The position numbers and the translations under genes were made by a program. The notes below the pieces were generated by a model. It was not told the DNA's origin and ran no database searches. It saw only the letters and a list, made by a program, of their open reading frames with translations. 64,000 nt of DNA, taken from NCBI RefSeq assembly GCF_963675165.1, contig NC_087378.1, positions 2,039,525-2,103,524 of the forward strand, given 5' to 3'. Origin of the DNA: Halichondria panicea. Lineage: Eukaryota > Porifera > Demospongiae > Suberitida > Halichondriidae. The first letter of the stretch is position 1; every line of letters starts with the position of its first letter. Positions 2,929 to 45,936 of this stretch are shown one piece after another.

Positions 2929-4160
2929 ATGAACATGCTCTGTGTGTATGGAGTTATTTTGGTAAGACTACAGGAATATTAATTTTATGTTGTAAATACT
3001 AATCAGTATAGGTCACTGCACTTGTGCAAGGACAACCACAGTATGAGGTGCAAGTACAGTTGCCTGTCACATTTACCTACAGAGAGGGAGCATCAACTAG
3101 GGGTGTTTCGTATAATAACACACTAGCTGATGACAGTTGTTGCACGCCTACTCCTGGAGGTACCTCTTGTCCCATTTGTGATAATCGTATCACCCTCTGT
3201 TTCCGAGAGGCTCAGCATCCAGTGGATGACACCAACACCGCCATCTGTCCTCTAGGAGATATGGTTTTCACCCCATCTGTACTGGGCACAGATATCATTA
3301 CATTTGATTCTACAGTGTCAACAACTACCACTACATATCCGGTGAGTTCGATTAAGGTGATTGAGTTAATCTTCTATACGTTTTCTTAGGGAAGTTTCCA
3401 ACTCTACTATTGAATATTTACACTACCAAGTGGACAAGAGGTTGAGAGTGGACAACGAACACTGACCCGGCCAAAACAAGACAGAACATCTACTCTGACT
3501 GGTAGCAGTCAAGTTGGTGGTGTGAGGACTAAACTATTTCTTGGAGGACTACGAGTAGTGTGCAAGGAAGGCTACTTTGGTCCTGACTGTGGTATACTTT
3601 GTACCTCAAGAAACGACTCCACTGGACACTTCACCTGTGACACTAATGGTATCAAGGTGTGTCTCCCCGGTTACCAGAATCCGGAGACCATCTGTGTGGA
3701 AGAAGAAGAAAATACAGTTACGCCCAAACCTTCCAGTACTAACATTGTGATAGAGTTGACTAGTAACAGTGACGTCTCTCCATCAGCTGCTGGTGCGGAC
3801 ATTGTACCCATTGTGGCTGGAGGAGTTGCTGCGGGGTTGGTGGTGTTAGTGTTGATCTTAATTGTCAACATTGTGTTGGTGGTTGCTTACGCGAAAGTCA
3901 AGTTTATGAAAGACACTTCAAATAAACAAGGTATGCTGTGATATCCGCACTGGAAAAACAACTAATTCATTATCATTCAAATCCCTTCTGTATGAATACA
4001 ACATAATTCAGTACTACTTAGTTGCTTGTTTTACCACCATCATGCAGGGTCTGCAGCGGAGGAGCAAATCGGTATGGAGGTGAACCCAATGTATGGGAAG
4101 GGGGACAACCATGACTATGAGAGAGTACAGGACTCTGTGCAGGCGTATTCTGTACAGTAG
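2929..4160 (+). pseudogene. Delta-like (DSL) membrane protein A1, one in-frame stop
   Basis: Four exons (2929-2961, 3012-3341, 3390-3930, 4048-4160) have correct GT/AG sites and a total length divisible by three. Exon 1 plus the start of exon 2 give a signal peptide (MNMLCVYGVIL|VTALVQ). Exon 2 carries the MNNL-like cysteine module (CC, C, C, LCFREAQH, CPLG). Exon 3 carries the DSL domain (EGYFGPDCG, CTSRNDSTGHFTC, VCLPGYQNPET) and a 23-residue membrane helix. Exon 4 encodes a tail with NPMY and DYERV. Exon 3, however, begins GSFQLYY then TGA where intact paralogues have CGA (Arg). This single C-to-T change truncates the protein before the DSL domain. Everything downstream is open, so the lesion is recent or polymorphic. 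Confidence 0.8.
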
Positions 4161-4425
4161 CTTTAGATCTATAGAAAGAGTAGCTTACACTTTCCATTGA
4201 ACATGAATCACACTGAGTACATGACTCTGTATTGAAGCACACGTATTCTCTGTACAGTAGCTTTAGATCTATAGAAAGAGTAGCTTACACTTCCATTGAA
4301 CATGAATCACACTGAGTACATGACTCCGTATTGAAGCACACGTACACTGCACTACAGTCACCGTACTGCACAGTAGCTTTAGATGGGTAGCTTACACTTC
4401 TATTGAACATGAATCACACAATTTC
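4146..4425 (+). repeat. Tandem duplication of the A1 3' end, unit about 100 bp
   Basis: The block beginning TAGCTTTAGATCTATAGAAA at the A1 stop codon is repeated at 4258 and, in shortened form, at 4373. The copies differ at only a few bases. It covers the stop codon and 3' untranslated sequence. Confidence 0.8.
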
Positions 4426-4559
4426 ATTATCAAAGTTTATCCATGAGAATGTGCATACTGATACTAACGAGATTACCGTACCGTAGTCATAATGACAAAA
4501 ATAATGGGCTAGTCAAACAGCGTTATGTGACAGGAGCAAAACATGTTATTAGTTTCTTA

Positions 4560-6130
4560 GGTACAAGCCTTGTACCAGCACCTTGTACTGTGATTGTCCT
4601 TGTAACAAGGACAATCACAGTACGAGGTGCAAGTTGAGTTGCCTGGCGGTTACCTACAGACAAGGAATATCGCTTATGCATGGGTGTTCTAAATCCATAT
4701 GAGAACAGGCTGGATATTTCTCACTTGCTTGCAGAAGGGGGGACCTCTTGTGATAATCGGATCCTCTATTTCAGAGAGACTTGGGATCCAGTGGATAACA
4801 ACACAGCCACCTGTCCTCTGGGAGCATTGACCTTCGCTCCATCTGCGATGGGTGCAAACATCATTACTACATTATCAACATAATTATACCACTACATATG
4901 CATGCAGTGAGTTTGATGATCTTTTTTGGGGCAATCTTTATATTTTTCTCAGGAAAGCCCTTGAGATTGAAATAAAAATAGTGTTCAGAGAAGGTTATAC
5001 TTTAATAGGTTGATCCTGACTGTATAGTTGCAGCTCACAGAACGACTCCACATGCAGGACACTTCACCTGTGACACTATATTGGTACCAAGGCATATCTC
5101 CCTGGTTACCAGAACCCCGAACCACACTGAACACCTGTAGAACACTCTCACCAAGTGTTTGCTTGCGCTGAGGTGTAGTTTGAAGATGTTCAGAGGGTTC
5201 AAACCACACCGAACACCTGTACAAAACCCTCTCCAGGTGTTTGCTTGTCTGGAGGTTCGTGCTTGCTGCAAGGCTCCTTTAGCTCAAGAATCATGGTCGT
5301 CACTATCATAGTCATAATCTTCCCAGGAATGGTATAATTAAAGTGTACGCTGAGGTGTAGTTCTAAGTTAGTCTCGCGAGCAGCCGTCGAAGGGGGAAGG
5401 ACCCTTCGACGGCTGCTCGCGAGACTAGTTCTAAGTACCATGTCAAGGAGATAATTTATCACTTAAGGCCTAATAACTGACTTTTACTTCCAAATTCTGC
5501 CTATTATTCTTACAATTGTTATAAAGGTGCTCATTATGTTAGCATAATTCTCACCTGTATAAGACCAACTGCACAGAAGAGGAAGGAAATACAGTTACGC
5601 CCAAACCTTCCAGTACTACGAGTAGTGTGATCCATGGTGAGTCTACTCCTGAGACAACGTTTACCACACAAGAGTTGATGACATTGATCAGCTGCTGGTG
5701 CAGATATGGTACCCATTGTGGCTGGAGGAATTACTGTGGGATTGGTGGTGTTAGTGTTGATCTTAATTGTCAACATTGTGTTGGTTGATTACGTGACAGT
5801 TTTTATGAAACAATAAACAAGGAAGATACGCTGTGACGTCCGCACTGAAAATAAAAATAATACATTATCATTTTGTATATTACAATACATACAGCATACT
5901 ACTTACCTGTTGCTTGTTTTACCACCATCTGGGTCAGCAACAGAAGAGAAAATCGGTATAGGTGAATCCAGTGTACGAGATGGGGGGAGGTGGACACAGC
6001 GGAATTAAGGACAAGAATGTTGAACACAGAATGGTATAATGATTGTTAACTTTACACAGCGGAGATATTTCCGTTTTCCATTTCCGTTTCCGTTGAATGA
6101 GAGAGTACGATGATTCTGAGTTGAACCAAT
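4560..6130 (+). pseudogene. Delta-like relic A2
   Basis: This is a heavily decayed copy. A stretch near 4615-4660 matches the start of the MNNL exon (QYEVQVELP), and 4740-4880 still encodes CPLGALTFAPS-like sequence, but frameshifts and stops break it. DSL-exon remnants lie at 5025-5115 (HFTCDT-like, then a degraded GYQNP). A stalk and membrane-helix remnant lies at 5565-5812, and a last-exon remnant follows at 5927-6115. A hairpin transposon at 5369-5427 is inserted in the middle. The 3' half recurs almost unchanged at 25850-26430. Confidence 0.75.
5369..5427. mobile_element. 59-bp foldback element with 9-bp target duplication
   Basis: A near-perfect palindrome runs TAGTCTCGCGAGCAGCCGTC inward, with a 26-bp arm and a loop of about 7 bp. 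It is flanked on both sides by the direct repeat GTTCTAAGT (5360-5368 and 5428-5436). This fits a non-autonomous DNA transposon that makes 9-bp target duplications. Confidence 0.85.
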
Positions 6131-6299
6131 CGTACTCTGTGCAGTAGCTTAGAAGAGCCGCTCAATGCTTATATATACTTGTGTGTTATCTGTTTACGTC
6201 ACTGAGCATTTATCATCTCATTTCATGGCTCAAAGTTATTATATTGATATTGATGTGACATTTGAATAATGGATACATAGTCACTCTGATTGACAATAA

Positions 6300-8405
6300 T
6301 TATGGGTTGTTGCTTGTACTGGTGCAAGGACAGCCACAGTACGAGTTGCAAGTAGAGTTGCCTGTCACATTTACCTACATAGAGAGGGGCTATCGCCTAT
6401 GAGTGCTCCATATGAGAACACGCTAGTTGATGTGTTGCTCACATGCTAAAAGAGGTACATTTACCTATTGTCCCACTGCGTGTGAGAATCGTATATCATC
6501 CTCTGTTTCAGCATCCAGTAAATGATAACAAAAAGCCATTTGTCCTCTGGAAGGAAGAATGACCTTAACTTTGATAGATAAGGCATCATAGTTATGCCTC
6601 GGTGCGCATGCGCAAGCGAGGTATACGGTAGTGTGTTTGTGTGTCTGTGTGTCTGTGTGTAGACTGCTACAGCTGCTCAAGGATGAATCAAGTGCAAGTA
6701 AGAGTTTCTATAGGCTTCTAGTCATGTTTACTTGGATTTTAATTCGTGGATTTGCAAAATAATGCTTTGTTCTCGAGTTATGCCTAGTTTTGCTTACTTG
6801 GAATGCCATTGCAGCCTTTTCAGAAGAGCACGTAGCCAAACTTGTTTACTGAGTGTTGCTACTCTACTTAGTACTTAGCTCTGCACTAGAACGCTAGCTA
6901 TTGGTAGCTGCAAGAGTGAGAAGAGAGCTGAAAGGCTCTGCTAATGCAGCCATTAATTTTAGACTTGAACTTTTGGCATCGATCGTTTTTAACAACAATC
7001 ATGGTGGATCATTACCCAATCTCTGAGTTTTTGCATGCAGCAAAATTAAATTGTTTATCATGTGCATTAGTAGCTTTATGTTATGTAGCCTCTACACAGG
7101 CTCTCCTTTTTCTGTTCTTTATCACAATCGTTCAATAAGATAAAATACTGTATTAATCGTTCAATGAGATAAAATACGGTATTAATTGGAGGAATAAAGA
7201 AAGAAATAGACGTAGAGTTAGGAAAAAGGAGAGCCTGTATCGGGAAGTCGCGTGAGGGTAGAAGGGTGGTAGAAGGGTGAAAATGAGCGTGGGCATGCTG
7301 AGCTAGAGATGTTGGACTGCCCACGTAGAGATCTATGACTAATAAAACTTTGCCTGCAGCAAGCTGGACATGGACTTGGAACTGGAAGTTTGCAAGCACT
7401 ATAGCTAGCTAAACCTTAGGCTTAGCTAGATGATCTACTAGTTATATGTTCAGATTCTATCAGACTATCCACCTTTTCTTGTGTCTTTCTATAGTCTACT
7501 GATAGTATAGATCAAGAATAGTTTAGTCATCATTATCATATAGCAGGTAGCTACTGCCACCAGAGCTGGCCACGCTGGTTCTCTGATCTGACTTGCAGCA
7601 CAGCTTGGTGGTTGTCTCAGTACAGTACAGTCTTATTAATTAATTAACTCTGAATGCGTGGGAGAATATCTTACGTCACGATTGTGGGCTACATATCGCC
7701 CATGTTCATAAAAATCCTTGTGGATCACGAGATTTCCCGAACCAGGCCTTACTTTTTCTTAACTGTACGCCCATTTCTTTCTTTGCTGCCTCACTATGTC
7801 TTTCTTATGATGTATGGATGAACAGTGACAACAGCAAGAAAAAGTGTAAGGCCTGGGATTGAGGCTATATGTTATGTAGCTTTGGCATCTCCACCGAGGC
7901 ATCAGCACCTGTGGTGCTTTCATTATTACAAGCAACTAGATCTACCACTAAATGTCCAGTGGTAACGGTATTTCCAATCAGTTTCTCAGCGAAGCTTCCA
8001 ACTTTACTATCGAAGTATTACAAGGGGAAACGAGGTTGAGAGTGGACAACAAAGACCCAGCTAATACAAGACTGTATTGGTGACAATCGACTCGCTGGTG
8101 TAAGGACTATATACTACGAGATGGAGGACTACGAGTTGTGTGCAAAGAAATGCTTAAATGTGGTTGCAGCTCACGAAACAACTCCAATGGACACTTAACC
8201 TGTGAACTACAAGTAATCGTATCAAGGCATGCATTCCCTAGTTATACCCAAACCTTCCAGTACTATAGTATTGTGATAGTGAGTATACTGCTATTGAGAC
8301 ACGTTTAATAAGAGTCTACTATAGTAACAGTAACGTCTCTTCATCAGCTGTTGGTACGAAAGTCAAGCTTATGAAGCACTATTCAAATAAAAAGGAACAA
8401 TGCTG
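6300..8405 (+). pseudogene. Delta-like relic A3, split by a 1.3-kb insertion
   Basis: 6320-6595 resembles the MNNL exon (QYELQVELPVTFTY, then frameshifts and lost cysteines). 7945-8275 resembles the GSF-exon and part of the DSL domain (KEMLKCGCSSRNNSNGHLTC). A fragment of the stalk and post-membrane KLMKHYSNK-like sequence ends at about 8405. Between the two halves, 6597-7925 is foreign: the duplicate copy at 26.6-27.2 kb joins the flanks directly. No reading frame survives. Confidence 0.75.
6597..7925. mobile_element. Insertion of about 1.3 kb bounded by inverted repeats
   Basis: The block starts ATGCCTCGGTGCGCATGCG and ends with CACCGAGGCAT, the inverse of its start. The copy at 26885 lacks the whole block, which defines an empty site. 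A GT-rich stretch follows the left end. Smaller inverted repeats lie inside (7094-7113 with 7220-7240; 7745-7855), suggesting nested elements. No transposase reading frame is recognisable. Related left-end sequence also occurs at 23628 and 45071 inside introns of the type D genes. Confidence 0.6.
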
Positions 8406-8424
8406 TGATCTGAAAATAATACTA

Positions 8425-8588
8425 CAGTGGAACCCCTCTATAACGGACACCTTTGGGAAACAATGATTTGGCCTTTATACAGAGGTGGACTTTGTTGAGA
8501 GGTTGTTTTGTACACAAACTGTTCATTTGGGACCTAGGCATAGCAACTGGCCTTTATTCGGACGTGGTTGTTAACAGAGGTTCCACTG
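8425..8588. mobile_element. 164-bp pogo/Tigger-like miniature element
   Basis: Terminal inverted repeats CAGTGGAACCCCTCT and AGAGGTTCCACTG lie between TA dinucleotides, the target duplication of the Tc1/mariner-pogo group. There is no coding capacity. A duplicate sits at 30989-31152 as part of the segmental duplication. Confidence 0.75.
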
Positions 8589-8754
8589 TAACACCATTAG
8601 ATACGTTAGTAAGCCTAATAAAAACTAGTAATTGCACTTTTACTTTCTTCAGTTACTATTGCATTCACATCAGAGGAGGAGAATCCAAGCGAACACACTA
8701 CATTTTTAAACAGGAAATTCCCATCTACCTATCACATACCTCCAGGCTAGCAGC

Positions 8755-8819: not shown

Positions 8820-9962
8820 ATGAGCTGGGCAAGTGGAATATTTTTGATTGTGGTAGGTTACTGATTGTTATCGTAGAATCAACTCAATACAATCATAGTT
8901 GCTACTTGTATTCAGGTCGTTGCATTGGTGCAAGCAACACCACAGTATGAGGTGCAAGTGCAATCACCTGTCTTATTATCATACACTCCTGGAAATCAAA
9001 ACCAACTATTTGATGGCACTTGCTGTTCACCTAATGAAAGCTGCTTGTCTGTGGAAACCAACTGCTGCTTTACTGCATGCAATGAAACTCAAATCACCCT
9101 CTGCTTCAGAGGCCCAACATTCAACAAATGACTCAGACTCTACCAACTGTCCTCTAGGAATGGCAACAGTCCTTTCTGATACAGTGGCTAATATCACATA
9201 TAATTCTACAGCAAACCTAACCACCACCACCACGTATACAGTAAGTTGCTTAACATTCTTTTACTGATAAAGATATCTAGTTACACACATTTTTCATAAC
9301 ACAGGGGAGTTTTCAACTTTTCTACAAAGTGGTATCTTTGCAGCCAGTAAGAGAAATTTACCATGGAGTAAGCACTCTCAATTATACAATACAATTGTGC
9401 GTCCAATAGTAAACAGTGGAGAACGAGCATTTCTATTGATTCGGGGCATTAGAGTGGTGTGCAGAGAAGGCTACTTTGGTCCTGACTGTGGTTGCAGCAC
9501 ACGAAACGACTCCACTGGACACTTTACCTGTGATACTAATAGTACCAAGGTGTGTTTCCCTGGTTACCAGAACCCTGAGACAAACTGTGTAGAAGAGGAA
9601 GGAAGTACACAAGAGCCTGCAATAACCATGAGCAGCAGTTCGGCTACTACCACTATATCATCTAGATCTGCTATTGCGGATATTATACCCATCATAGGCG
9701 GAGGTGTTGCCGGGGGGTTGTTGGTGTTGCTATTGATGCTGACTGTTAACGTTGTATTGGTGGTTGCTGCTATCAAGTTCAAGTTTACTGCACAACATTC
9801 AAGAGCTCAAGGTATATGCATGCTTAATATTCAACTTGTCACTTTCTTACTACATGTAATTCTCAATCCATAGTTGATGAGCACATTACCATGGGAGCCA
9901 ATCCAGTTTATGATATGAAACAAAGAGATGAAAGCGACACTTATTATGAAACTCTAAAATAA
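8820..9962 (+). pseudogene. Delta-like B1, short-tail type, two frameshifts
   Basis: Exon 1 (8820-8852) gives MSWASGIFLIV. Exon 2 (8916-9240) is the MNNL-like module, exon 3 (from 9305) holds DSL and the membrane helix, and the last exon ends at 9962. Compared with C1 and B3, exon 2 lacks two bases after LCFR, so it runs into a stop; exon 3 lacks seven bases near 9393, which again shifts the frame. Downstream sequence is well kept: VVCREGYFGPDCGC, HFTCDTNSTKVCFPGYQNPETNC, helix ADIIPIIGGGVAGGLLVLLL. The last exon codes NPVYDMK and TYYETLK. The type B pattern is TATA promoter, MSWASG leader and short tail. Confidence 0.8.
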
Positions 9963-10235: not shown

Positions 10236-10935
10236 AGGGGAGCTTCCGGTTCTTTTGCAGCCAGTAACAGAGATCGACCATGCATATACCTGCACCATCA
10301 CTCTCAACTTTACAATACATCACTTTTGTGCACCAATAGTAGTATAAGAGTTGTGTGCAGAGAAATTACTGTGGTTGCAGCCCACGAAACAAAGCTTGTG
10401 ATATTAAAGGCTCTACTGAAGCACCCATTTTTACGCCATACCAATAGTCCAGCGTCCCTGCCCATTCTCCCGATATCAGTGGGTGGGGCGGACTAGTTTT
10501 GTAGTATAGTGTGTGTCTGCAAGTCCAATAGCAAAAGGAATCACACACCACAAGATACGTTTGTAAGCCTAACAAATGCATGTCTGTACTGTCATGTACG
10601 TACAGTCTTGTACTTACTTCTGTACATGCATGTATAAAACACCTAAGGCACTTAGCATAAATATAATTATAAGCTAGTCAACACTGAAATTGAAACATGG
10701 ACATGCACTTTACTGTATGCACTGACTCAGAATTGCATTCACACATCACAGGAGAAACCAAGCAACACAGAGGATGATACCTTTTCATTGTATTTAAAAG
10801 TCAACAAGGAGAATAGTAAGTAGCTTTGAAGTCAGTTTCAAGAGGCTTCTTAATATTCAACTTAGCACTTTCTTGATGATGCATGGAGCACCTTACCATG
10901 GGGACCAATCCAATCTATGAAGATATAAAAATGAC
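10236..10935 (+). pseudogene. Delta-like relic R1 (type C remains)
   Basis: Order is preserved but no frame is. It holds a GSF-exon start (10236-10335), VVC and DSL scraps (10345-10395), a type C membrane-exon remnant containing CPFSRYQWVGRTS-like sequence (10437-10550), the SEENPSNTEDD exon (10736-10815) and a tail remnant with TMGTNPIYEDIK (10880-10935). Close copies lie at 32811-33545 and 36397-37435. Confidence 0.65.
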
Positions 10936-12032: not shown

Positions 12033-14338
12033 ATGAGCTGGGCAAGTGGAATATTTTTGATTGTGGTAGGTTACTGACTGTTATCGTAGAAACAATCATA
12101 TAGTTGCTACTTAATTGTATTCAGGTCGTTGCATTGGTGCAAACAAAACCACAGTATGAGGTGCAAGTGCAATCACCTGTCTCATTTTCATACGCTCCTG
12201 GAAATCAAAACCAACTATTTGATGACACTTGCTGTTCACCTAATGAAACGAACAATTGCTCGTCTACTGAAACCAACTGCTGCTTTACTGCATGTAACGA
12301 AACTCAAATCACCCTCTGCTTCAGAGAGGCTCAGCATTCAACAAATGACTCAGACTCTACCAACTGTCCTCTAGGATTGGCAACAGTCCTTTCTGATACA
12401 GTGGCTAATATCACATATAATTCTACAGCAAACCTAACCACCACCACCACCACCACGTATACAGTAAGTTGCTTAACATTCTTTTACTGATAAAGATGTC
12501 TACGCACATTATTTTCATAACATAGGGGAGTTTCCAACTTTTCTACAAAGTGGTAGCTTTGCAGCCAGTAAGAGAGATCGACCATGGAGTAAGCACTCTC
12601 AACTATACAATACAAGATATTTTTGTGCGTCCAATAGTATACAGTGGAGAACGAGCATTTCTATTGATTCGGGGCATTAGAGTGGTGTGCAGAGAAGGCT
12701 ACTTTGGTCCTGACTGTGGTTGCAGCACACGAAACGACTCCACTACCCTTGAACCACCCTCCTGGTCCAATGCCAATAATCTAGCATTCCTGTCCATTCT
12801 CCCGACAGCAGTGGGCGGGGCAGTGGGTGGACTAGTTTTTATGGTATTATTCCTTGTTTTTGTTATTGTGGTAGTGTGTGTCTGCAAGTGCAAGAGCAAA
12901 AGGAATCAAGCTACAAGAGGTGTTGGTATGGCTAAGATTAATCTGCATGCATGCACTTCTACATACATGTTACTAGTATAGTCTTGTTGCATGTACATGT
13001 ATAGAACCCTAAGGTACTTCGCGTTAGCTAGTATACTAAATACTGATATTGCAATCTTTGAATACAGTTACTATTGCATTCACGTCAGAGGAGAATCCAA
13101 GCAACACAGAAGATGATGCCCTCTCATTGTATACACAAGTCAACAAGGAGAATAGTAAGTAAACGTTAGCTTTGAAGTCAGTCTATGAAAGAGGCACATT
13201 AAAATTCAGAATGCAAGGTTTTAAAAATAACATTATCGATTGCATTGTTTTTGTATCAGATACCCAACAAGAGGAGGCCCCTCCAATTAACCCTTATCAG
13301 GAAAGCATCTACGCGGAGGTGAAGAAGACGAGATCGTTTACTAAGAACGGGCACGTTGACAAGGAGCCACACTACAGTACCCCTAGCAATGCCTCTACAC
13401 CACAGTACAGTGTACCTAGCACTGTTCTCATGGATACACCACAATACAGTACTCCACTTTCAAAGGACGCTAGCGATAACCTTAAGGAGCCACAGTACAG
13501 CACTCCTATTTCTAGGGGGGCTACCCTTACCTGTAAGCCCCAATACAGTACGCCTGTTAGCACACTACCCAGGGATTACCCTAAGGAGACACTGTACAGC
13601 ACACCTGTTTCCAAGGGGACTACATCACCACACACTAAGAAACCACAGGTATGCCTCTTTATAGCTAGTATAACGTAATTTTTGTGGGGTAAAAAAACGC
13701 GGTGATTTTCATGAGTAATTGACTTCGTTGCCTGTACTGCATGCATGCGTTCCGGTAAACCACGCCTGTACGCTCGAGCATTACTCAACCGAGAGCATTA
13801 TTGTATCATCTGAGTATAATATTGCTCTCGGTTGAGTATACTGCTCATGGTTTTTGTGATTTTTGTGGAGGTCAGCTTTCCCATAAAAAATAACGAATTT
13901 TTACAAAAATTATCCGCTACATGGTATGTGTTTGTACGGGATCACACTTGTACGTACTATTCCTACAGGTTGTGTATGGTGACATCTCGAGCATTACTCA
14001 ACCGAGAGCATTATTGCATCATCCGAGTATAATATTGCTCTCGGTTGAGTATACTGCTCATGGTTTTTGTGACTTTTGTGGAGGTCAGCTTTCCCATAAA
14101 AATAACGAATTTTTACAAAAATTATCCGCTACATGGTATGTGTTTGTACAGGATCACACTTGTACGCACTATTCCTACAGGTTGTGTATGCTGACATAAA
14201 GGTTTCCAGAACCACAGGGGATGAATCTACAAAGTCAAATAAAGTAGGTCACATAATAATTATCAGCATTAATTCGCTATGCAATCGTCTCCACAGAATG
14301 ACAAGATTGAAGTACAGTACTCGGAAATTCAAGCATAA
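12033..14338 (+). CDS. Delta-like C1: half DSL domain, tail with YSxP repeats and four ITIM-type sites
   Basis: Seven exons (12033-12065, 12125-12463, 12526-12919, 13068-13154, 13260-13648, 14181-14243, 14297-14338) splice to an intact 448-residue protein. Residues 1-20 are a signal peptide. About 25-124 form the MNNL-like module with repeated NxS/T sites. The DSL domain starts near 178 (VVCREGYFGPDCGCSTRNDS) but stops there: the HFTC...NC half with three cysteines is absent and the chain goes straight to a short linker and a helix near 214-240 followed by CVCKCKSKR. The tail holds SLYTQV, SIYAEV, VVYADI and VQYSEI, all fitting the (S/I/V/L)xYxx(I/V/L) ITIM pattern, and six YSxP repeats (HYSTP, QYSVP, QYSTP x3, LYSTP). 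Known of such motifs: SH2 docking after phosphorylation. Ligand and partners are unknown. Confidence 0.8.
13768..14190. repeat. Tandem duplication (about 212 bp) carrying a hairpin, inside C1 intron 5
   Basis: The block with ACTCAACCGAGAGCA and its inverse TGCTCTCGGTTGAGT appears at 13775-13835 and again at 13990-14055, followed each time by the same splice-acceptor tract and GTTGTGTATG. The first copy therefore contains a truncated decoy of exon 6 (GTTGTGTATGGTGACATC at 13970). Locus C2 has one copy only (39728-39925). Confidence 0.75.
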
Positions 14339-32810: not shown

Positions 32811-33545
32811 GGGGAGCTTCCTTGGTTCCTTTGCAGCCAGTAACAGAGATCGACCATACATATACCATGCACCATGCATCACTCTCAACTTTACAATACA
32901 TCACTTTTGTGCACCAATAGTAAACAGTAGTATAAGAGTTGTGTGCAGAGAAATTACTGTGGTTGCAGCCCACGAAACAAAGCTTGTGATATTAAAGGCT
33001 CTACTGAAGCACCCATTTTTACACCATACCAATAGTCCAGCGTCCCTGCCCATTCTCTCGATATCAGTGGGTGGGGCGGACTAGTTTTGTAGTATAGTGT
33101 GTGTCTGCAAGTCCAATGAATCACACCACAAGATACGTTTGTAAGCCTAACAAATGCATGTCTGTACTGTCATGTACGTACAGTCTTGTACTTACTTCTG
33201 TACATGCATGTATAAAACACCTAAGGCACTTTGCATAAATATTACAGTAATTAATTATAAGCTAGTCAACACTGAAATTGAAACATGAACACTTGACTGC
33301 ATGCACTTACTCAGAATTGCATTCACACATCAGAGAAGAAACCAATTATTAAGCAACACAGAGGATGATACCTTTTCATTGTATGAAAGTCAACAAGGAC
33401 AATAGTAAGTAGCTTTGAAGTCAGTTTCAAGAGGCTTCTTAATATTCAACTTGGCACTTTCTTACTGTATAGATGATGCATGAGCACCTTACCATGGGGG
33501 CCAATCCAATCTATGAAGATATGAAAGCGACACTTACTATACATC
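32811..33545 (+). pseudogene. Delta-like relic R2
   Basis: Duplicate of R1: GSF-exon start, DSL scraps, type C membrane-exon remnant (33040-33115), SEENPSNTEDD-exon remnant (33318-33400) and a short tail remnant with NPIYEDMK near 33500. No open frame. Confidence 0.65.
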
Positions 33546-35126: not shown

Positions 35127-36240
35127 ATGAGCTGGGCAAGTGGAATATTTTTGATTGTGGTAGGTTACTGATTGTTATCGTACTCAATACAATCATAGTT
35201 GCTACTTGTATTCAGGTCGTTGCATTGGTGCAAGCAAAACCACAGTATGAGGTGCAAGTGCAATCACCTGTCTCATTTTCATACACTCCTGGAAATCAAA
35301 ACCAACTATTTGATGGCACTTGCTGTTCACCTAATGAAACGAACAGCTGCTCGTCTAATGAAACCAACTACTGCTTTACTGCATGCAATGAAACTCAAAT
35401 CATCCTCTGCTTCAGAGAGGCTCAGCATTCAACAAATGACTCAGACTCTACCAACTGTCCTCTAGGAATGGCAACATTCCTTTTTGATACAGTGGCTAAT
35501 ATCACATACAGTTCTACAGCAAACCTAACCACTACCACCACGTATACAGTAAGTAGCTTAACGTTTTTTTTACTGATAAAGTTGTCTACGCACAATATTT
35601 TCATAACACAGGGGAGTTTCCAACTTTTCTACAAAGTGGTAGCTTTGCAGCCAGTAAAAGAGATCGACCATGGAGCCGTAATCACTCTCAACTATACAGT
35701 ACAAGATACTTTTATGCGTCCAATAGTAAACAGTGGAGAACAAACATTTCTATTGATTCGGGGCATAAGAGTGGTGTGCAGAGAAGGCTACTTTGGTCCT
35801 GACTGTGGTTGTAGCACACGAAACGACTCCACTGGACACTTTACCTGTGATACTAATAGTACCAAGGTGTGTTTCCCTGGTTACCAGAACCCTGAGACAA
35901 ACTGTGTAGAAGAGGAACGAAGTACACAAGAGCCTGCAATAACCATGAGCAGCAGTTTGGCTACTACCACTATATCATCTAGATCTGCTATTGCGGATAT
36001 TATACCCATTATAGGCGGAGGTGTTGCCGGGGGGTTGTTGGTGTTGCTATTGATGCTGACTGTTAACGTTGTGTTGGTGGTTGCTGCTATCAAATTCAAG
36101 TTTACTGCGCAACATTCAAGAGCTCAAGGTATATGCATGCTTAATATTCAATTTGTCACTTTCTTACTGCATGTAATCCTCAATCCATAGTTGATGAGCA
36201 CATTACCATGGGAGCCAATCCAGTTTATGATATGAAATAA
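35127..36240 (+). CDS. Delta-like B3: DSL membrane protein with very short tail
   Basis: Exons 35127-35159, 35216-35548, 35612-36128 and 36191-36240 give 310 residues without a lesion. Signal peptide MSWASGIFLIV|VVALVQA; MNNL-like module with CC, FTACNETQIILCFREAQH and CPLG; GSFQLFYKVVALQP segment; complete six-cysteine DSL domain (VVCREGYFGPDCGC, HFTCDTNSTKVC, GYQNPETNC); short Ser/Thr stalk; helix ADIIPIIGGGVAGGLLVLLL; tail ending NPVYDMK. Compared with B1 and B2 the tail has CAA changed to TAA, losing the last 14 residues with the TYYETL site. Intron 2 is only 63 bp and stop-free, so it could be retained in frame. Probably a ligand- or receptor-type surface protein with little own signalling. 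Confidence 0.8.
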
Positions 36241-36514
36241 AGACTGAGATGAAAGCGACACTTATTATGAACTCTATCCTAACTCATTGTCATTACGGTA
36301 CATAGTGACAATACAAAATGAAGGCCTCTATATTATTATACACATCATGGTTTCATACATGCAGTATAGATAATACGAAAATTACTTTATAACACAGGGG
36401 AGCTTCCTTGGTTGTTTTGCAGCCAGTAACAGAGATCGACCATGCATATACCATGCACCATCTCTCTCAACTTTACAATTTTTGTGCATCCAATAGTAAA
36501 CAGTGGTATAAGAG

Positions 36515-36754
36515 TTACCGTATAGCGTGAAACTTTCGAGGCACTTATATTTCGTGGATTGGCTTCTAAAAGCCATTTCGTTGCACAATATTTGCGGAAT
36601 GACTGCTTACCAGAAGCTACGCCTTTAAATATTTCATGATAGCAGGTAATTCTAATTAAAGAACAATTTTCGTGGACTTAATTTTCGTGTAGAATTCTAA
36701 CCCACGAAATCCGCGAAAATTAAACCCCTCGAAAATTTCGCGCTATTACGGTAT
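36515..36754. mobile_element. 240-bp miniature inverted-repeat element
   Basis: Ends TACCGTATAGCG and CGCTATTACGGTA are imperfect inverted repeats with GAAA/TTTCG arms; R1 and R2 lack the block. A related but decayed element lies at 54030-54250 in a kinesin intron. Confidence 0.6.
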
Positions 36755-37316
36755 GTGCAGAGAAACACGAAACAAAGCTTGTGATATTAAAGAAGCACCC
36801 ATTTTTATGCCATACCAATAGTCCAGCGTCCCTGCCCATTTTCCCGACAGCAGTGGGTGGGGCAGTGGGTGAACTAGTTTTGTACTAGTGTGTGTTTACA
36901 AGTCCATGCAATAACAAAAGGAATCACACCACAAGATACGTTTGTAAGCCAAACACATGCATGTCTGTACTGTCATGTACGTACAAACCTACCAGTCTTG
37001 TACTTACTTCTGCACGTATAAAAACCTAAGGCACTTTGCATAAATATTACAAAAATTATAAGCTAGTCAACACTGAAATTGAAACATGAACACTTGACTG
37101 CATGCATTTACTCAGAATTGCATTCACACATCAGAGGAGAAACCAAGCAACACAGAGGATGATACCTTTTCATTGTATATAAAAGTCAACAAGGAGAATA
37201 GTAAATGGCTTTGAAGTCAGTTTCAAGAGGCTTCTTAAAAGTCAACTTGGCACTTTCTTACTGTATATAGATGATGCATGAGCACCTTACAAATACATAC
37301 CATGCATGGGGCCAAT

Positions 37317-38440: not shown

Positions 38441-38548
38441 CGCTATACTTACCTAGTTGTGAATGAACTCGGCATAATAAGTTAGTATAATATACAACAA
38501 TTATTTGCCAGGAAATCCCCATTTACTTATATAATGACATACCTCCAG

Positions 38549-40081
38549 TGGAGTAAGCACTCTCAACTATACAATACAAGATATTTTTGTGCGTCCAATA
38601 GTAAACAGTGGAGAACGAGCATTTCTATTGATTCGGGGGATTAGAGTGGTGTGCAGAGAAGGCTACTTTGGTCCTGACTGTGGTTGCAGCATACGAAACG
38701 ACTCCACTACCCTTGAACCACCCTCCTGGTCCAATACCAATAATCTAGCATTCCTGTCCATTCTCCCGACAGCAGTGGGCGGGGCAGTGGGTGGACTAGT
38801 TTTTATGGTATTATTCCTTGTTTTTGTTATTGTGGTAGTGTGTGTCTGCAAGTGCAAGAGCAAAAGGAATCAAGCTACAAGAGGTGTTGGTATGGCTAAG
38901 ATTAATCTGCATGCATGCACTTCTACATACATGTTACTAGTATAGTCTTGTTGCATGTACATGTATAGAACCCTAAGGCACCTCGCGTTAGCTAGTATAC
39001 TAAATACTGATATTGCAATCTTTGAATACAGTTACTATTGCATTCACAGAGGAGAATCCAAGCAACACAGAAGATGATGCCCTCTCATTGTATACACAAG
39101 TCAACAAGGAGAATAGTAAGTAAACGTTAGCTTTGAAGTCAGTCTATGAAAGAGGCACATTAAAATTCAGAATGCAAGGTTTTAAAAATAACATTATCGA
39201 TTGCATTGTTTTTGTATCAGATACCCAACAAGAGGAGGCCCCTCCAATTAACCCTTATCAGGAAAGCATCTACGCGGAGGTAAAGAAGACGAGACTGTTT
39301 ACTAAGAACGGGCATGTTGACAAGGAGCCACACTACAGCACCCCTAGCAATGCCTCTACACCACAGTACAGTGTACCTAGCACTGTTCTCATGGATACAC
39401 CACAATACAGTACCCCACTTTCAAAGGACGCTAGCGATAACCTTAAGGAGCCACAGTACAGCACTCCTATTTCTAGGGGGGCTACCCTTACCCGTAAGCC
39501 CCAATACAGTACGCCTGTTAGCACACTACCCAGGGATTACCCTAAGGAGACACAGTACAGCACACCTGTTTCCAAGGAGACTACATCACCACCCACTAAG
39601 AAACCACAGGTATGCCTTAGCTAGATAACGTAATTTTTGTGAGGTAAAAAACGCGGTGATTTTCATGAGTAATTGACTTCATTGCCTTCACTGCATGCGT
39701 TCCGGTAAACCACGCCTGTACGCTCGAGCATTACTCAACCGAGAGCATTATTGTATCATCCGAGTGTAATAATGCTCTCGGTTGAGTACTGCTCAGGGTT
39801 TTTGTGATTTTTGTGGAGGTCAGCTTTCCCACAAAAATAACGAATTTACAAAAATGATCTGCTACATGGTATAATTATGTTTGTACGGGGGTTACACTTG
39901 TACATACTATTCCTAAAGGTTATGTATGCTGACATAAAGGTTTCCACGTTATCCAGAACCACGGGGGATGAATCTACAAAGTCAAATAAAGTAGGTCACA
40001 TAATTATCAGCATTAATTCGCTATGCAATCGTCTCCACAGAATGACAAGATTGAAGTACAGTACTCGGAAATTCAAGCATA
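38549..40081 (+). pseudogene. Delta-like C2, lacking promoter, leader and MNNL exons
   Basis: At 38548 the upstream sequence (ACATACCTCCAG) jumps straight into the middle of the GSF exon (GGAGTAAGCACTCTCAAC), so TATA box, exon 1, exon 2 and the start of exon 3 are deleted. The rest matches C1 closely: truncated DSL, helix, SLYTQV exon (39029-39113), YSxP exon (39219-39609, all five QY/HYSTP units plus QYSVP open), VMYADI exon (39920-39990) and VQYSEI exon (40041-40082). The coding frame of the tail is intact, so a transcript from a cryptic promoter could still encode a helix and tail without ectodomain. More likely dead. Confidence 0.75.
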
Positions 40082-41030
40082 AGCTTAAGCATTATAAGAA
40101 TTGCAAGGAAAACATTAGAATCACTATTATTGACTGACTGTATAGGCACATATTGTTTTTATAGTGCTGTGCAGTACTACAGCGGCCTGCAATGGGTTCA
40201 ACATGCTTGGCCAAACAGTATAATTAAATGCATAGCACTATAATTATATATACAGTAATGTAGGTGTGAAAGGTCATAATAAATTATTGTTTACAGAACA
40301 AAAGGTATAATCTTATGGTTTCTTTTTATGACTTCATAACCTGTCTTACCTACCTTTAAAGTAGCTAATATCGTATTTAGATCAACTACACGGTAGTTCA
40401 CAGTTATAAAAGAGTAGCTAAGCACCAACTGCACGGAAGAAGTATCAATCACACCTGACCCTAAACAGAATCTGTCCCTGACTCCTACTCATGCAGACTC
40501 TTACTTATTATATCAGAGTCCTACTTAATATATCGGAGTCCTACTTAATATATCGGAGTGGTACTTCATTAAAAAAAGAGGAACACAAATTGAAATGGCT
40601 TTTTGTCCTATTTGGCCCCTCATATAGGGCACATATCTTCATAATTAATTTGCTATGCAATCTTTCCTCTCCACAGAATGACAAACATAGTACTCAGAAA
40701 TTCAACTAAAACAGACTGTATCAGTGTCTTATTAGTGTCTTGGAGCTAGACGATCATGTAAACAACCCTACTGTTTAATCTGAAAGTGTTGCGTCAATGA
40801 ACAGTGTTTTAAATTAGAAATTATAGGTACAACATGCTTGGACAAGCGTTCTTACTTCATGGTGGTTGACATGTACATACTAGCTGGTAGTAGAGTATAA
40901 TGCAAACATTAACGGTTGTAATGATTGTGTACAGAAAGGCATATATATAAACAATCTTATGGCTTCTTCCTATATGACTTCACAACGTTAGATAAACTAG
41001 TTCACAAGCAACTAAGCACAGCTACAAAGA

Positions 41031-41895
41031 TGATCTTACACTGGATACCTTAATGGTAAGCAGTTACATATTATTAATGTACTCATAGGACACTCTATAA
41101 TGCAAACAGGAAGGACAATTACCACAGTACGAGGTACAAGTTGGACTGCCTGTCACATTTATCTACAGAGAGGGACTATCGGATAGGAATGTTTCATATA
41201 ATAACACACTAGCTGATGGCAGGTGTTGCAAACATAATGAAGGAAATACCTCTTGTCCCACTGCTTGTGATAATCGTATCCTTCTCTGTTTCCGAGAGGC
41301 TCAGCATCCAGTGAATGACACCGACCGAGCTGTCTGTCCTCTGGGAACAATGACCTTCACTCCATCTGTAATGGATACAGGTATCATTACATTCAATTCT
41401 ACAATGCAAGCAACTACCACTATACATATCCAGTGAGTATGACTAAACTATAAGTTGCTGTGAGCTAATCTTCTATTTTCTCAGGGAAGCTTCCAACTTT
41501 ACTCGAATTAGTACAGTATCAAGGGGAGAAGAGGTTGATAGTGTACAACAAACACTGACTGAGCCAATACAAGACAGAACATCTACTCTGACTGGTAGCA
41601 GTAACGTTGTTGATGTGAGGACTAGACTATTAAATGGAGGACTACGAGTGGTGTGCAGAGAAGGCTACTTTGGTCCTGACTGTGGTTGCAGCACACGAAA
41701 TGACTCCACTGGACACTTTACCTGTGATACCAAGGTGTGTTTCCCTGGTTACCAGAATCCTGAGACAAACTGTGTAGAAGAGGAAGGAAGTACACAAGAG
41801 CCTGCAATAACCATGAGCAGCAGTTCGGCTACTACCACTATATCATCTAGATCTGCTATTGCAGATATTATACCCATCATAGGCGGAGGTGTTGC
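41031..41895 (+). pseudogene. Delta-like B4/A mosaic pseudogene, truncated in the membrane exon
   Basis: The leader is type A (MILHWIP then TAA, ten bases deleted). The MNNL exon (41120-41432) is type A with an open core (QVGLPVTFIYREG, RILLCFREAQHPVND, CPLG) but loses its start and gains two bases at the end. The next exon has stops before DSL. The DSL region itself (41650-41775) is type B. At 41896, just after IIPIIGGGVA, it breaks into the repeat cassette. At least three lesions plus truncation make it non-functional. Confidence 0.75.
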
Positions 41896-41896
41896 C

Positions 41897-42980
41897 GACT
41901 ATATCAGAAAATGATGAGGTCGGTACCAAACTACTGTAGTGTGCAGTAGACTCTCGCTATTCCGGCTCTCTGAAGTACGGCCACCTCGATATACCGGCCA
42001 TTTGGCTTGGCACAGAATGCTAGCTATATGTTTACTGCACAAAACTCACCCTGAAGTACGGCCACTCGCTATTCCGTATACGAGCCAGTGCTGGCTGTCC
42101 CAAACAAGGTTTTCAATGTAATTTTATACGTGTATTACGGCCGGATATGATGTTTTAGGTGTGGTTTAGCAAATAAAATTGAATTAAATAGAGAACAGAA
42201 TGATTCATTATCCTTCATTATCCTCGAGACAAGAACCGCAAAATGAGTCATTAAATTCGAGGTAAGGTCGTTTTTAAGCCGCGGCTATTTTGAAATACAG
42301 CCACCTCGCTATTCCGGCCAAGCTGCATGGTCCCAAGGGTGACCGGATTAACAAGAGTCTACTGTACACTCTCAGCTACTTGCCAAATGACGCCTCGGGG
42401 TACTGAAACCTTATAAGTGCCGGTACAAGGTTCTAACCCCGATTAATCTCCCTACACGTTTCGGCGGGGGGGAGGGGGTGCACCAAAACACGGGCGAAAA
42501 ATTTCGTTTTAGTACATATGTCGATTAAAGCAATTTTGTGCGCTGTCTGTGACCTTTCTGATGGACGTAGTGCTGGGCAGGTATTTATGACTCAAATCGA
42601 GCCAATGGCAGGTAAGGGTTAATTAAAGCTAGCCTCGTTGTCTCTAACAAATAGTGCTAGGTCACCGTATTTTCCACTTCGTTCTAATAAAGAAAAATCA
42701 GCCTGGGACCGAGGCTACCTTAAAGCATGCAGCTCCAAGATGCATCTATGCATGGCTTCACTATAAGATGATGGTTTCAACTGAGCCTGTAATTATGACG
42801 AGAAGGAACTTTTCAACCCTTTGGGTGCACACAGGAAAAAGCACAAATAAGTAACCTTACAGTCTGAACGTTGAGAATTGGTGTATATTAATTGTGCAGG
42901 TACTTTTTATGACAACAATGTAAATGAGTGCAAAAAACTTATACACCTGTGTATAAGGATACTCAGAGTTAGTATGGTCC
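41897..42980. repeat. Array-specific upstream cassette, copy 4 (interrupted)
   Basis: Same block as 10947-11815, starting ACTATATCAGAAAATGATGA and split by the pogo-like element at 41944-42364. It precedes D2. Confidence 0.6.
41944..42364. mobile_element. pogo/Tigger-like element, second copy
   Basis: CAGTAGACTCT and AGAGTCTACTG ends as at 33882-34329. The left TA has changed to TG. This copy lacks the nested foldback, giving its empty site. Confidence 0.7.
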
Positions 42981-43134
42981 TGACACTATAATTATACTCG
43001 TGGATATACCGCTATACTTATACCTAGTTGTGAATGAGCTCGGCATAATAAGTTAGTATAATATAGACAACAATTATTTGCCAGGAAATCCCCATTTACT
43101 TATAATTATAATGACATACCTCCAGGCTAGCAGC

Positions 43135-43143
43135 TATAAATAG
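43135..43143 (+). promoter_or_regulatory. TATA box of Delta-like D2
   Basis: TATAAATAG lies 72 bp before the start codon at 43215. This is the type B promoter, now driving a type D tail gene. Confidence 0.6.
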
Positions 43144-43214
43144 TGTGTCAGTTGGTTAGAATCAATACAGACCTTGTTTGTAGAGATTCCAAGCAAAAGA
43201 ACAACTTGGTGAAG

Positions 43215-45123
43215 ATGAGCTGGGCAAGTGGAATATTTTTGATTGTGGTAGGTTACTGACTGTTATCGTAGAATCAACTCATAGTTGCTACTTGTATTCA
43301 GGTCGTTGCATTGGTGCAAGCAAAACCACAATATGAGGTGCAAGTGCAATCACCTGTCTCATTTTCATACGCTCCTGGAAATCAAAACCAACTATTTGAT
43401 GGCACTTGCTGTTCACCTAATGAAAGCTGCTTGTCTGAGGAAACCAACTGCTGCTTTACTGCATGTAACGAAACTCAAATCACCCTCTGCTTCAGAGAGG
43501 CTCAGCATTCAACAAATGACTCAGACTCTACCAACTGTCCTCTAGGAATGGCAACAGTCCTTTCTGATACAGTGGCATATAATTCTACAGCAAACCTAAC
43601 CACCACCACCACCACGTATACAGTAAGTTACTTAACGTTCTTTTACTGATAAAGATGTCTATGCACATTATTTTCATAACATAGGGGAGTTTCCAACTTT
43701 TCTACAAAGTGGTAGCTTTGCAGCCAGTAAGAGAGATCGACCATGGAGTAAGCACTCTCAACTATACAATACAAGATATTTTTGTGCGTCCAATAGTAAA
43801 CAGTGGAGAACGATCATTTCTATTGATTCGGGGCATTAGAGTGGTGTGCAGAGAAGGCTACTTTGGTCCTGACTGTGGTTGCAGAGATAATTCCACTGGA
43901 CACTTCACCTGTGACGCTAATGGTACCAAGGTGTGTCTCCCTGGTTACCAGAACCCTGAGACCAACTGCACGGAAGAAGCACTAATTACACCTGAACCTA
44001 CAACAGAAACTGTCCCCACTGCTAATCCAGCCTCTCAGACAACAGAAACTTCCCAGCCGACACCACAGACTATACAGCAGAACATTACTACCTTTATAAC
44101 AGAGGCACTGACTACTATAGGCATAACAAACGCAGGTACTACTATGGATGTTTTGCCGATAGCAGTAGGCGGGGCAGTGGGTGGCCTGGTTGTGGTGGTG
44201 ATAATCATATTAATCACAATTTTGCTGGTCCTCAAAACTAAGAGAAAGAAAAAGAGCGAAGAAGATGGTGAGTTAAAAGATTACACATGCAGGTGCATAC
44301 GAAAACTAACAAACACTACATTAATTTACTTCAAATGCTTCTTCCTTTGTTTCTCTTTACCCACACTCACGTCGTATAGCTACCACAATCATGAATTTAG
44401 AGGAGCTTCAGAACAACACTGATGGTATTGACGCTTTGAACTTGTATGCTAGTGTCAACAAAGATGCAAGTGAGTAATAGTGCAGGAAAGCACCTACCAC
44501 CACTTCAAACACTGTAGTGCTTGCAACACCCATTGCTAACCATTCACTTTACAACAACTAGAGTATCCATATCAACATAGCTTCAAATTAATTTACAGTC
44601 ACGTTTAGAAAGCACCCAGTACTGTACGCATGACATAAATTTTTTGTGTAGATAAATGTGCAGAAACACCACAAGAGGAAGCCCCTGCAGTGATCCCTTA
44701 TCAAGGACAGATCTACTCGGAGGTGGAGAAGACGGGACTGTTTGGTAAGCAGGAGAGTGATTCAACTAGTGAGGAGCCTCAGTACAGCACGGCAACAGCT
44801 GGTACTTCTAAACTGGAGAGTGTCGATGAGAACGAAGAGCCAAGGTACAGCACAACTCAATTCCTAGCTATTGATAAGGAGCCACAGTACAGTTCTCCCA
44901 ATGCTGCGAGTGCATCGACTCAGGCACTCAATGAAGAGCCTCGATATGACACCACTTTTAGAGGTGCCTCTACGGCAACTGGAACCAACGAAGAACCACA
45001 TTACAGCACTGCCATTAGAAACGTGCCCTCAAACACAGCTACACAGGTGATTACCACATTAATTTTGTTCGTTATGCCTCGAGGCGTAGCCGCACGAGGG
45101 ATACGGTAAAGCTAACTTTGTGT

Positions 45124-45160
<37 letters not shown>

Positions 45161-45936
45161 CCAGCTGTAACTGCTCAACGGTTGCAATGCGACGAAAACT
45201 AACAGCTTCTATAGGCTTCTAGCCACATCTTCTTGTTTATACACGTACCTTTGTTATTGTTACAGATGCAGATAAATGAGGCTGGCTACAGTATTCTAAA
45301 CGGTGACCCTAAACGCTTCGAAAATGTGAATATTGGACCGGAATACTCCAAGCTGGAGGGCACCACACAAGTGACACAACATCAGGTATTTATTGTAGCA
45401 CTCAAAAAATCTATCGACATACTGTACAGGTACAGGACGAGAGTCAGTATTCGGAACTTGAGACTACCAAGAAGCCTGAGGTCCAGGTATTCCTTTAGTG
45501 TTAGTACGTCCTTATAAGTCTTCGAAAACCTTTTACCTAAAAGAATACTAGTGCTACATAGCTATACAGCTTCTTCCAACAGATCTATGTGGCTGGCTAC
45601 AGTGCACTTGAAGAACCTCGATACTCTGAAATTGAAAGTGAAACTAAGCAACCACAGGTATTCAAATTAAAATATGCTACACATTTTAGTATAAGGAATT
45701 TCAATATTACTATCAACTTGTGATACTCGTAAACAACTAATCCGCAGATTGTGTATGCTGATTTAGAGATTGCGGATACACAGAGTGCTGACAAAGCAAC
45801 TACACAAACGGTACGGTACAGCACAAGACGTGATTACGTGTCTGATAATGACCACACAATTACCCCCCTGCAGTCTGACAACATGAACACAACAGAAGTA
45901 CAGTACTCGCACATTAAGAACGGACAGTCAGTTTAG
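43215..45936 (+). CDS. Delta-like D2: type B ectodomain with the long type D ITIM tail
   Basis: Nine exons (43215-43247, 43302-43622, 43685-44267, 44380-44469, 44652-45046, 45266-45385, 45430-45486, 45583-45657, 45748-45936) give an intact 620-residue protein. Leader and MNNL module are type B (MSWASGIFLIV, CFTACNETQITLCFREAQH). Within exon 3, near GYFGPDCGC, the sequence changes to type D (RDNSTGHFTCDANGTKVC, CTEEALITPE), with a shorter stalk than D1. Helix near residues 272-298, then KTKRKKK. The tail is almost identical to D1: IYSEV, five EPxY sites, GYSIL, EYSKL, QYSEL, GYSAL, RYSEI, VYADL, VQYSHI. The last five exons match D1 in size exactly. It is a natural chimera of two array lineages under the TATA promoter of one and the signalling tail of the other. 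Confidence 0.85.

Follow-up and report, generated by a model that had tools for sequence, protein, structure and literature searches.

Delta-type ligands of Notch have been described in sponges before. Richards and Degnan (2012) reported five Deltas in Amphimedon, one of which, AmqDelta4, is without an EGF repeat; the ligand set is differentially expressed in embryogenesis, and the tails carry SH2 and PTB sites predicted by ELM, with the authors' own caveat of no significance (PMC3482393). Gazave (2009) likewise gave zero EGF repeats for an Amphimedon Delta and listed DSL-only genes in cnidarians (PMC2770060). An EGF-less Delta, as exemplified by AmqDelta4, is thus already known in sponges and is not new here. 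In this study we describe a linked array of related receptor genes with a Delta-type head and no EGF repeat in a 64,000-nucleotide stretch of the sponge Halichondria panicea (contig C2, positions 2039525-2103524; hereafter the window), together with related genes found by searching the genome (131 Mb, 39 contigs).

The array and the Amphimedon Deltas are alike in being sponge type I proteins with DSL and an MNNL or MNNL-like module, in the EGF-less state of AmqDelta4 and in having predicted SH2 or PTB sites in the tail (PMC3482393, PMC2770060). Unlike our array, the Amphimedon Deltas are presented, in the available text of that account, with no tandem array, no paired tails and no analysis of immunoreceptor tyrosine-based inhibitory motifs (ITIMs), and their genomic arrangement is not stated there. 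The DSL-only genes of Nematostella also place DSL outside the canonical EGF architecture; they consist of DSL repeats (one with MNNL), and, unlike for the array, the available text mentions no membrane helix with a phosphotyrosine tail (PMC2770060).

The candidate allorecognition receptors FcoR of Botryllus and Alr of Hydractinia resemble the array as surface receptors with ITIM-related tails for which the matching signalling proteins are present. A 2025 review describes ITIM and hemITAM (hemi-immunoreceptor tyrosine-based activation motif) tails on FcoRs and on Hydractinia candidates, and the FcoR ectodomain is immunoglobulin (Ig) plus sushi, unlike MNNL-DSL (PMC12065747); another paper concerns Ig-type proteins (PMC11999971). 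The FcoR and Alr loci, unlike the sponge array, have been studied for fusion or rejection. The Alr ectodomains are of the Ig type as well. Vertebrate paired receptors (KIR, SIRP, LILR, Siglec) form birth-and-death arrays in which near-identical ectodomains, again Ig-type, sit on long ITIM or short tails, and their short-tail activating partners use a charged residue in the membrane segment. In a literature search that excluded most subscription papers and bioRxiv preprints, no paper among the matches listed linked DSL proteins to ITIMs in sponges. We put at about even the chance that the array is a lineage-specific birth-and-death family of recombining type I receptors, in which an EGF-less Delta-type head would be combined with paired long and short tails and with phosphotyrosine signalling.

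Gene models and the Delta-type outer part

Five loci at 12.0, 18.4, 21.6, 35.1 and 43.2 kb of the window had been picked out as intact in a sequence-only reading of this DNA; we refer to them as C1, D1, D2, A5 and B3 (loci L12, L18, L21, L35 and L43). Spliced models were built for these and for a sixth locus, L03. All five candidate loci proved intact, with frames open from start to stop and GT-AG at all introns (five of the six models). Each intact gene encodes a signal peptide and an MNNL-like module, and reading of the five proteins confirmed the single membrane helix that had been proposed for each. Together with the broken copies, the five genes lie within 43 kb and form a linked array of related receptor genes, as allorecognition receptor loci (Alr, FcoR) do.

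The RefSeq annotation agrees closely with these models. The spliced D2 protein is 100% identical over its length to isoform X1 of LOC135330905, and two more array genes match LOC135330925 and LOC135330900. The RefSeq protein P0003 is identical to the D1 model, P0001 equals the D2 model plus 2 residues at the exon 7 acceptor, and P0002 equals the B3 model plus the same 2 residues at the same acceptor and 105 N-terminal residues. In addition, P0002 is without 16 residues (two tyrosines) inside exon 5 of B3 (44639-45109). By eye, GT...AG flanks the absent stretch in the DNA, and the gap is possibly a splice variant, that is, an intron inside the exon that tunes the number of tyrosines. The "isoform" labels of RefSeq suggest transcript evidence. 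At the level of annotation, P0001 and P0002 join the tail exons to the DSL exons, as the sequence-only reading supposed; because these proteins join head and tail, and the intron phases fit, we rejected the alternative that the tail exons are a separate gene.

To describe the outer part we scanned seven proteins with Pfam: P0001, P0002, P0003, P0005 and the models of C1, A5 and S1, the last being a paralogue outside the window. Four of the intact genes (D1, D2, A5 and B3) encode proteins in which DSL exceeded its cut-off (E-values 4.6e-8 to 7.2e-6), and the best PDB match of D1 exon 3 is Delta-like protein 1 (5.8e-8). The claim of a DSL domain in every intact locus has to be narrowed for C1, in which DSL stops after the third cysteine, so that the second half is lost and Pfam returns no match. 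P0005, a protein from another contig and the most C1-like, has no Pfam match either. The predicted absence of EGF repeats held, as no EGF family was listed at E <= 0.1 for any of the seven proteins. With DSL over its cut-off in four of the five, no EGF family listed and MNNL marginal (see below), membership of the Notch-ligand family is partial, and we file these proteins as EGF-less Delta-like receptors and not as strict Notch ligands.

The description of the N-terminal cysteine module as MNNL-like stood in part. Single exons at 3.0, 15.4, 18.5 and 41.1 kb, of the D and short-tail types, score 23.1-25.9 bits against the Pfam cut-off of 22.5. The match is marginal elsewhere: full-length P0001 (22.2 bits) and P0003 (21.6 bits) fall just under the cut-off, S1 reaches 14.8-18.8 bits, and MNNL is not listed by Pfam for the C1, A5 and B3 proteins. 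A match at E <= 1 was obtained for three of seven N-terminal modules, and a family profile of the module retrieved 0 PDB chains up to E 10. We accept the homology because an EGF-bearing Delta of the same genome (L029), read from its open frames, shares with the array both the cysteine pattern and the place of an exon junction (WP or YP, with G-x-x-Q starting the next exon). Pfam matches to RIFIN, DAP10, ECSCR and EphA2_TM were dismissed, all being under their own cut-offs.

The clear DSL homology also favors a different explanation, in which the genes are Delta-family ligands that modulate sponge Notch in cis or in trans, the loss of EGF making them weak or blocking ligands and the tails serving endocytosis or back-signalling. 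We regard it as possible but doubtful. A precedent is the EGF-less AmqDelta4, part of a set differentially expressed in embryogenesis (PMC3482393). The H. panicea genome has a Notch-type gene on contig C10 (L035), with Lin12/Notch repeats (LNR; 52.7 bits) and EGF-like repeats. From reading them, we take the LNR matches on contig C17 to be of the GNPTAB type and not Notch. NPxY and YxxPhi, both found among the tail motifs considered below, are also endocytic signals and count for this explanation. Against it, the Phe that precedes GHF in the DSL loop of Delta-like 1, which we take to be a Notch-contacting residue, is Thr in S1 and in the five genes of the array that retain the loop. This is one position, and at it six further DSL genes of the genome, each with EGF patterns close by, read G, L, T, F, L and L, so that Thr occurs in one of these six EGF-bearing Deltas as well. 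Half of DSL is lost in one intact gene, and the many broken copies and the swapping of heads described below would be unlike a dosage-sensitive developmental ligand. The case for Notch-ligand recognition by the array heads is weaker than the sequence-only reading put it.

Long tyrosine-rich tails and short NPxY tails

We counted strict ITIMs, defined as (S/I/V/L)xYxx(I/V/L), and took significance from shuffles of each tail (20,000 each for D2, B3 and C1). The tails of D2, B3 and C1 have 16, 16 and 12 tyrosines, respectively. This agrees with the up to about sixteen sites and several ITIMs that had been noticed earlier, but only these three intact genes are long-tailed. D2 has four strict ITIMs (SQYSEL, SRYSEI, IVYADL and VQYSHI; shuffle mean 0.60, P 0.0022), as does C1 (SLYTQV, SIYAEV, VVYADI and VQYSEI; mean 0.51, P 0.0010), while B3 and S1 have three each (mean 0.57, P 0.0169 and mean 0.46, P 0.0089). 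Strict ITIMs are nonetheless a minority of the long-tail tyrosines, and in C1 six of the 12 are YxxP (shuffle mean 1.25, P 0.0002), which qualifies the description of these as ITIM tails. By eye, a repeated stretch with an inverted-repeat look lies at 13760-14190 in C1; through it the exon 6 acceptor and the beginning of that exon are present twice (VVYGDI, VVYADI).

The conservation of these sites can be followed in S1, a single paralogue that lies on the same contig at a distance of about 580 kb (L020:4222-6119; seven exons, 407 amino acids). Compared with the six window models, its head shows an identity of 53-57% in exon 2 and of 32-41% in the part of the MNNL-like module termed MNNL-b; its tail shares 39-40% of residues with each of the three long ones. 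Overall, the D2, C1 and S1 tails are 38-40% identical and have six tyrosine columns in common. In corresponding exons, two sites are strict ITIMs in all three (IVYADL/VVYADI/VVYADL and VQYSHI/VQYSEI/IQYSRV, for D2/C1/S1), and a third (NLYASV/SLYTQV/VMYTKV) fits the strict pattern in two of them. Around the shared tyrosines, from -2 to +3, 10 of 27 columns are identical, versus 15 of 82 elsewhere. S1 clusters with P0011 and P0016 from other contigs (support 96/98), and since they are 45-49% identical its lineage is old.

The remaining genes end in short tails, with NPVY in D1 (two tyrosines in the tail) and A5 (one) and NPMY in L03. A search at E <= 0.01 turned up no short-tail exon within D2, B3 or C1; we therefore assign the tail type to the locus and reject alternative splicing of one gene into long and short forms. 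An Asn in the membrane helix occurs in L03, A5 (as in P0004), P0009, P0010, P0012, P0013 and P0017, and is missing from C1, D1, D2, B3, S1 and other relatives. Only three carriers have a readable tail (L03, A5 and P0013) and all three have NPxY there; D1 is a short-tail gene without the Asn. The Asn could mark a partner-binding helix.

Several observations weigh against a family of paired receptors that signal through ITIM-type tails. Given a Yxx(I/L/V) core, S/I/V/L at -2 is not significant in D2 (4/9, P 0.153), B3 (3/9, P 0.348) or S1 (3/5, P 0.154), and such cores could be endocytic YxxPhi signals. The D2 and B3 tails are 97% identical, so that the shared tail counts as one observation and not two, and B3 carries PRYSEI at the position of the D2 ITIM SRYSEI. 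The short tail of D1 contains one strict match (IDYEIV), which blurs the contrast between long and short tails. Unlike the activating partners among vertebrate paired receptors, D1 is without a charged residue in its membrane helix, and the short tails of the array have NPxY. An EGF-bearing Delta cluster at C15:2173000-2190000 (L025, L026) has tyrosine-rich open frames with NPxY and ITIM-like sites. Strict ITIMs number 3 in one such frame (P 0.02) and 2 in another (P 0.19). Tails of this kind may therefore extend beyond the EGF-less genes, and phosphotyrosine tails may be general among the Deltas of this sponge. Finally, the number of non-synonymous substitutions per site (dN) in MNNL-b is 0.54-0.82 between most types (0.10-0.11 for L03 versus the two D genes, 0.02-0.07 within types); because the synonymous counterpart (dS) between types is near or beyond saturation, this is divergence and not positive selection. 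Positive selection in the head was likewise rejected from recent MNNL-b pairs, whose nonsynonymous to synonymous changes (8:1, 7:1, 4:0 and 2:0) are too few and not independent.

The same tyrosines might instead be activating or adhesive docking sites of surface receptors that are not inhibitory, binding Crk via YxxP, SH2 adaptors, and AP-2 via YxxPhi. We think this unlikely. It would account for the excess of YxxP in C1 and for D2, where the ITIM -2 residue accompanies four only of nine Yxx(I/L/V) cores, and it would be served by the SH2-only proteins on contigs C2 and C4, with CAAX-like ends in three of the four frames read. Two observations oppose it. C1 alone is significant at -2, as all four of its Yxx(I/L/V) cores have the ITIM residue (4/4, P 0.005), and in D2, C1 and S1 alike, a pair of terminal sites retains I/V at -2 together with I/L/V at +3.

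Recombination, turnover and other Delta-type genes

B3 is a recombinant, with a C1/A5-type N-terminus up to about 43.9 kb and D2-type sequence from about 44.1 kb. In 100-base bins, the stretch at 43.1-43.9 kb is 93-99% like C1 and 90-98% like A5, and the stretch at 44.1-46.1 kb is 91-100% like D2 (>=95% in 19 of 20 bins). A second mosaic, P0019, lies on a contig of 1,019 bases: its head is identical to the broken L41 copy at 55 of 60 residues, its stalk and membrane part to B3 at 129 of 129, and its exon 4 to D2 at 33 of 33. These two mosaics imply that heads move between tails, and that a combination missing from the window exists elsewhere. Of high polymorphism between individuals, as expected of allorecognition receptor loci, the head and tail combination of P0019 is only a hint, one genome having been analysed. 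D1 and D2 have near-identical heads (exon 2 96%, MNNL-b 93%, DSL 98%) on a short and a long tail.

The array may be misassembled locally. P0008 and P0018, listed on a contig of 1,368,633 bases, give no independent support because the window encodes both letter for letter. The contigs of P0004, P0005 and P0019 are different ones (4,948, 7,784 and 1,019 bases); they show that the gene types and a mosaic exist there, but do not show gene order.

The window holds more broken copies and fragments than intact genes, of which there are five (Table 1), as would be expected of a decaying duplicate cluster with little function. We consider this very improbable, as five genes are fully open with intact splice sites. 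Also against it, the dN/dS ratio is 0.33 between the D2 and B3 tails (small numbers: 7.5 synonymous and 8.5 non-synonymous changes) and 0.09-0.47 for DSL in 15 pairs, with a DSL dN of 0.05-0.12 in all pairs except the recent D1/D2 pair (0.01). Moreover, the S1 type clusters with proteins from other contigs, and by similarity short-tail and D-type relatives also occur on other contigs. Prokaryote and viral contigs gave 22 and 5 pattern matches, respectively, none of which is a relative.

Of the 26 places with DSL in the genome, 8 are in the window. On contigs C16, C15, C14, C17 and C2 there are DSL genes that have EGF patterns in adjoining open frames. An MNNL start with EGF repeats occurs at C12:1820500-1827000 (L044), C14:5676500-5683000 (L045) and C9:6574500-6580500 (L046). 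MNNL is over the cut-off in the C12 and C14 stretches, and in that of C9 too in a six-frame search; DSL was not listed for the six frames scanned in these three stretches. In all three, frames with a membrane helix and NPxY accompany MNNL-EGF, in a mirror image of the DSL array, and more MNNL matches were seen at C6:3.98-4.03 Mb. We take the C12, C14 and C9 arrays for a second Delta-head family in expansion. Two copies of one open frame, 137 kb apart (C4:5457205-5457588 and C4:5594023-5594406; L031 and L032), each have three DSL matches, and these exons recall the DSL-only genes of Nematostella and other cnidarians. As MNNL-DSL, MNNL-EGF and MNNL-DSL-EGF are all found in one genome, the Delta head looks modular.

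Table 1. Members of the receptor array and their remnants, in window coordinates
Feature	Position	Strand	Description
Intact gene C1 (L12)	12033..14338	+	7 exons, 450 amino acids; signal peptide, MNNL-like, half DSL, membrane helix, long tail
Intact gene D1 (L18)	18397..20266	+	4 exons, 392 amino acids; MNNL-like, DSL, membrane helix, short NPVY tail
Intact gene D2 (L21)	21595..24473	+	10 exons, 649 amino acids; MNNL-like, DSL, membrane helix, long tail
Intact gene A5 (L35)	35127..36240	+	4 exons, 310 amino acids; MNNL-like, DSL, membrane helix with Asn, short NPVYDMK tail
Intact gene B3 (L43)	43215..45936	+	10 exons, 597 amino acids; recombinant, D2-type stalk, membrane helix, long tail
Broken copy L03, short-tail type (NPMY)	2929..4160	+	exons present; early stop in exon 3
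Degenerate family exon fragments (4.6-5.1, 6.0, 6.3-6.6, 8.0-8.2 kb)	4578..8245	+	exon remnants
Broken A-type copy	8895..9920	+	exons 2 and 3 frame-changed; short-tail exon 9876-9920
Degenerate fragments	10249..10921	+	C1-type exons 3 and 4, short-tail exon
Broken copy L15, short-tail type	15286..17085	+	stop at exon 3 codon 7 from usual acceptor; short-tail exon 16981-17085
Fragment	17369..17872	+	exon 2 and partial C1-type tail exon
Fragment	20563..21121	+	exon 2 and C1-type tail repeats
Degenerate fragments	26603..27207	+	exons 2 and 3
Broken A-type copy	31478..32506	+	frame changes; short-tail exon 32462-32506
Fragments	33316..33526	+	exon 4 and short-tail exon
Degenerate fragments	36405..37199	+	exons 3 and 4
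Second C1-type copy	38538..39990	+	exon 2 not found; exons 3-6 83-96% identical to C1
Copy L41, D-type N-terminus	41030..41914	+	Pfam MNNL 25.9 bits; exon 3 reading interrupted

The downstream neighbours (51227-57093) are presumably ordinary genes, a SAM-domain-like protein on the minus strand and a kinesin-motor-like gene on the plus strand, as judged from their translations.

Phosphatase genes and a proposed mode of signalling

Genes of both the SHP and the SHIP type are present in the genome. Contig C3 has two SH2 matches (8406162 and 8405372) and after them, without a change of strand, a protein tyrosine phosphatase (PTP) exon (8404573). This is the tandem SH2 plus PTP order of a SHP-2-like gene, and the exon that completes the first SH2 has PTPN11 (SHP-2) as its best match (9.9e-34). 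On contig C9 the order is SHIP-like: downstream of an SH2 match (5692896), and on the strand that carries it, come four matches to inositol 5-phosphatase (5687115-5689504). We also came across small SH2-only proteins at L041:4692-5273 (minus strand), L042:9398-9901 (minus strand) and L043:3160-3822 (plus strand), the CAAX-like ends mentioned above being CVFM, CVVL and CTIL. Similar SH2 matches lie at C4:5.18-5.50 Mb and on C2, where one is about 49 kb beyond the end of the window; lipid-anchored SH2 proteins would be unusual. Contig C4, mainly at 0.04-2.6 Mb, carries a very large expansion of PTP-domain exons, with at least 176 matches genome-wide (150 of 361 candidates scored).

From these elements we infer a possible course of ligand binding, phosphorylation, recruitment and sign of signal. 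Most likely, a partner on a neighbouring cell or on another surface would bind the long-tail receptors and cluster them. A tyrosine kinase would then phosphorylate the long tail, and ITIM-type sites would recruit SHP-2-like and SHIP-like phosphatases. Other sites would bind adaptors, for instance Crk at the YxxP repeats of C1, YxxP being a Crk docking site. Where a short-tail member has almost the same head, as D1 has relative to D2, it would act as a competing partner with a different output, in the manner of vertebrate paired receptors, and recombination between copies would swap heads on a shared tail. Judging from the tail motifs, it is plausible that a long-tail member works like an ITIM receptor. 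The idea of a Notch-ligand head merged with phosphotyrosine signalling, put forward at the outset, thus finds DSL homology without EGF, ITIM-type tails, and SHP-2-like and SHIP-like genes in its favor, although its EGF-less head has a sponge precedent.

A more specific version of the paired-receptor reading would make the array a poriferan recognition locus. Paired MNNL-DSL receptors with ITIM long tails and NPxY short tails, their heads reshuffled among haplotypes by recombination, would govern the compatibility of tissues or the adhesion of cell types via SHP-2-like and SHIP-like phosphatases. We rate this version as quite unlikely. A role in self/non-self recognition is a guess, and allorecognition a hypothesis with a fitting genomic anatomy. 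Sponge allorecognition has long been observed, and to our knowledge the receptor genes behind it are not settled.

For such work, the array is a compact and chromosome-placed candidate for cell recognition, from an animal lineage that is among the oldest. It comprises five genes whose heads and tails are defined, and the genome also encodes phosphatases that are candidates for acting downstream. Were the recognition role true, Notch-ligand heads would be a further, unrelated class of ectodomain on the ITIM pathway, in a lineage branching earlier than the cnidarians and tunicates with their Ig-type receptors. Should the tails act as ITIMs, a sponge would have inhibitory signalling through phosphatases coupled to a Notch-ligand head, distant from the Ig-type receptors known for such signalling. 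Even if the ITIM reading fails, the array suggests that sponges use the Delta head as a modular unit of recognition.

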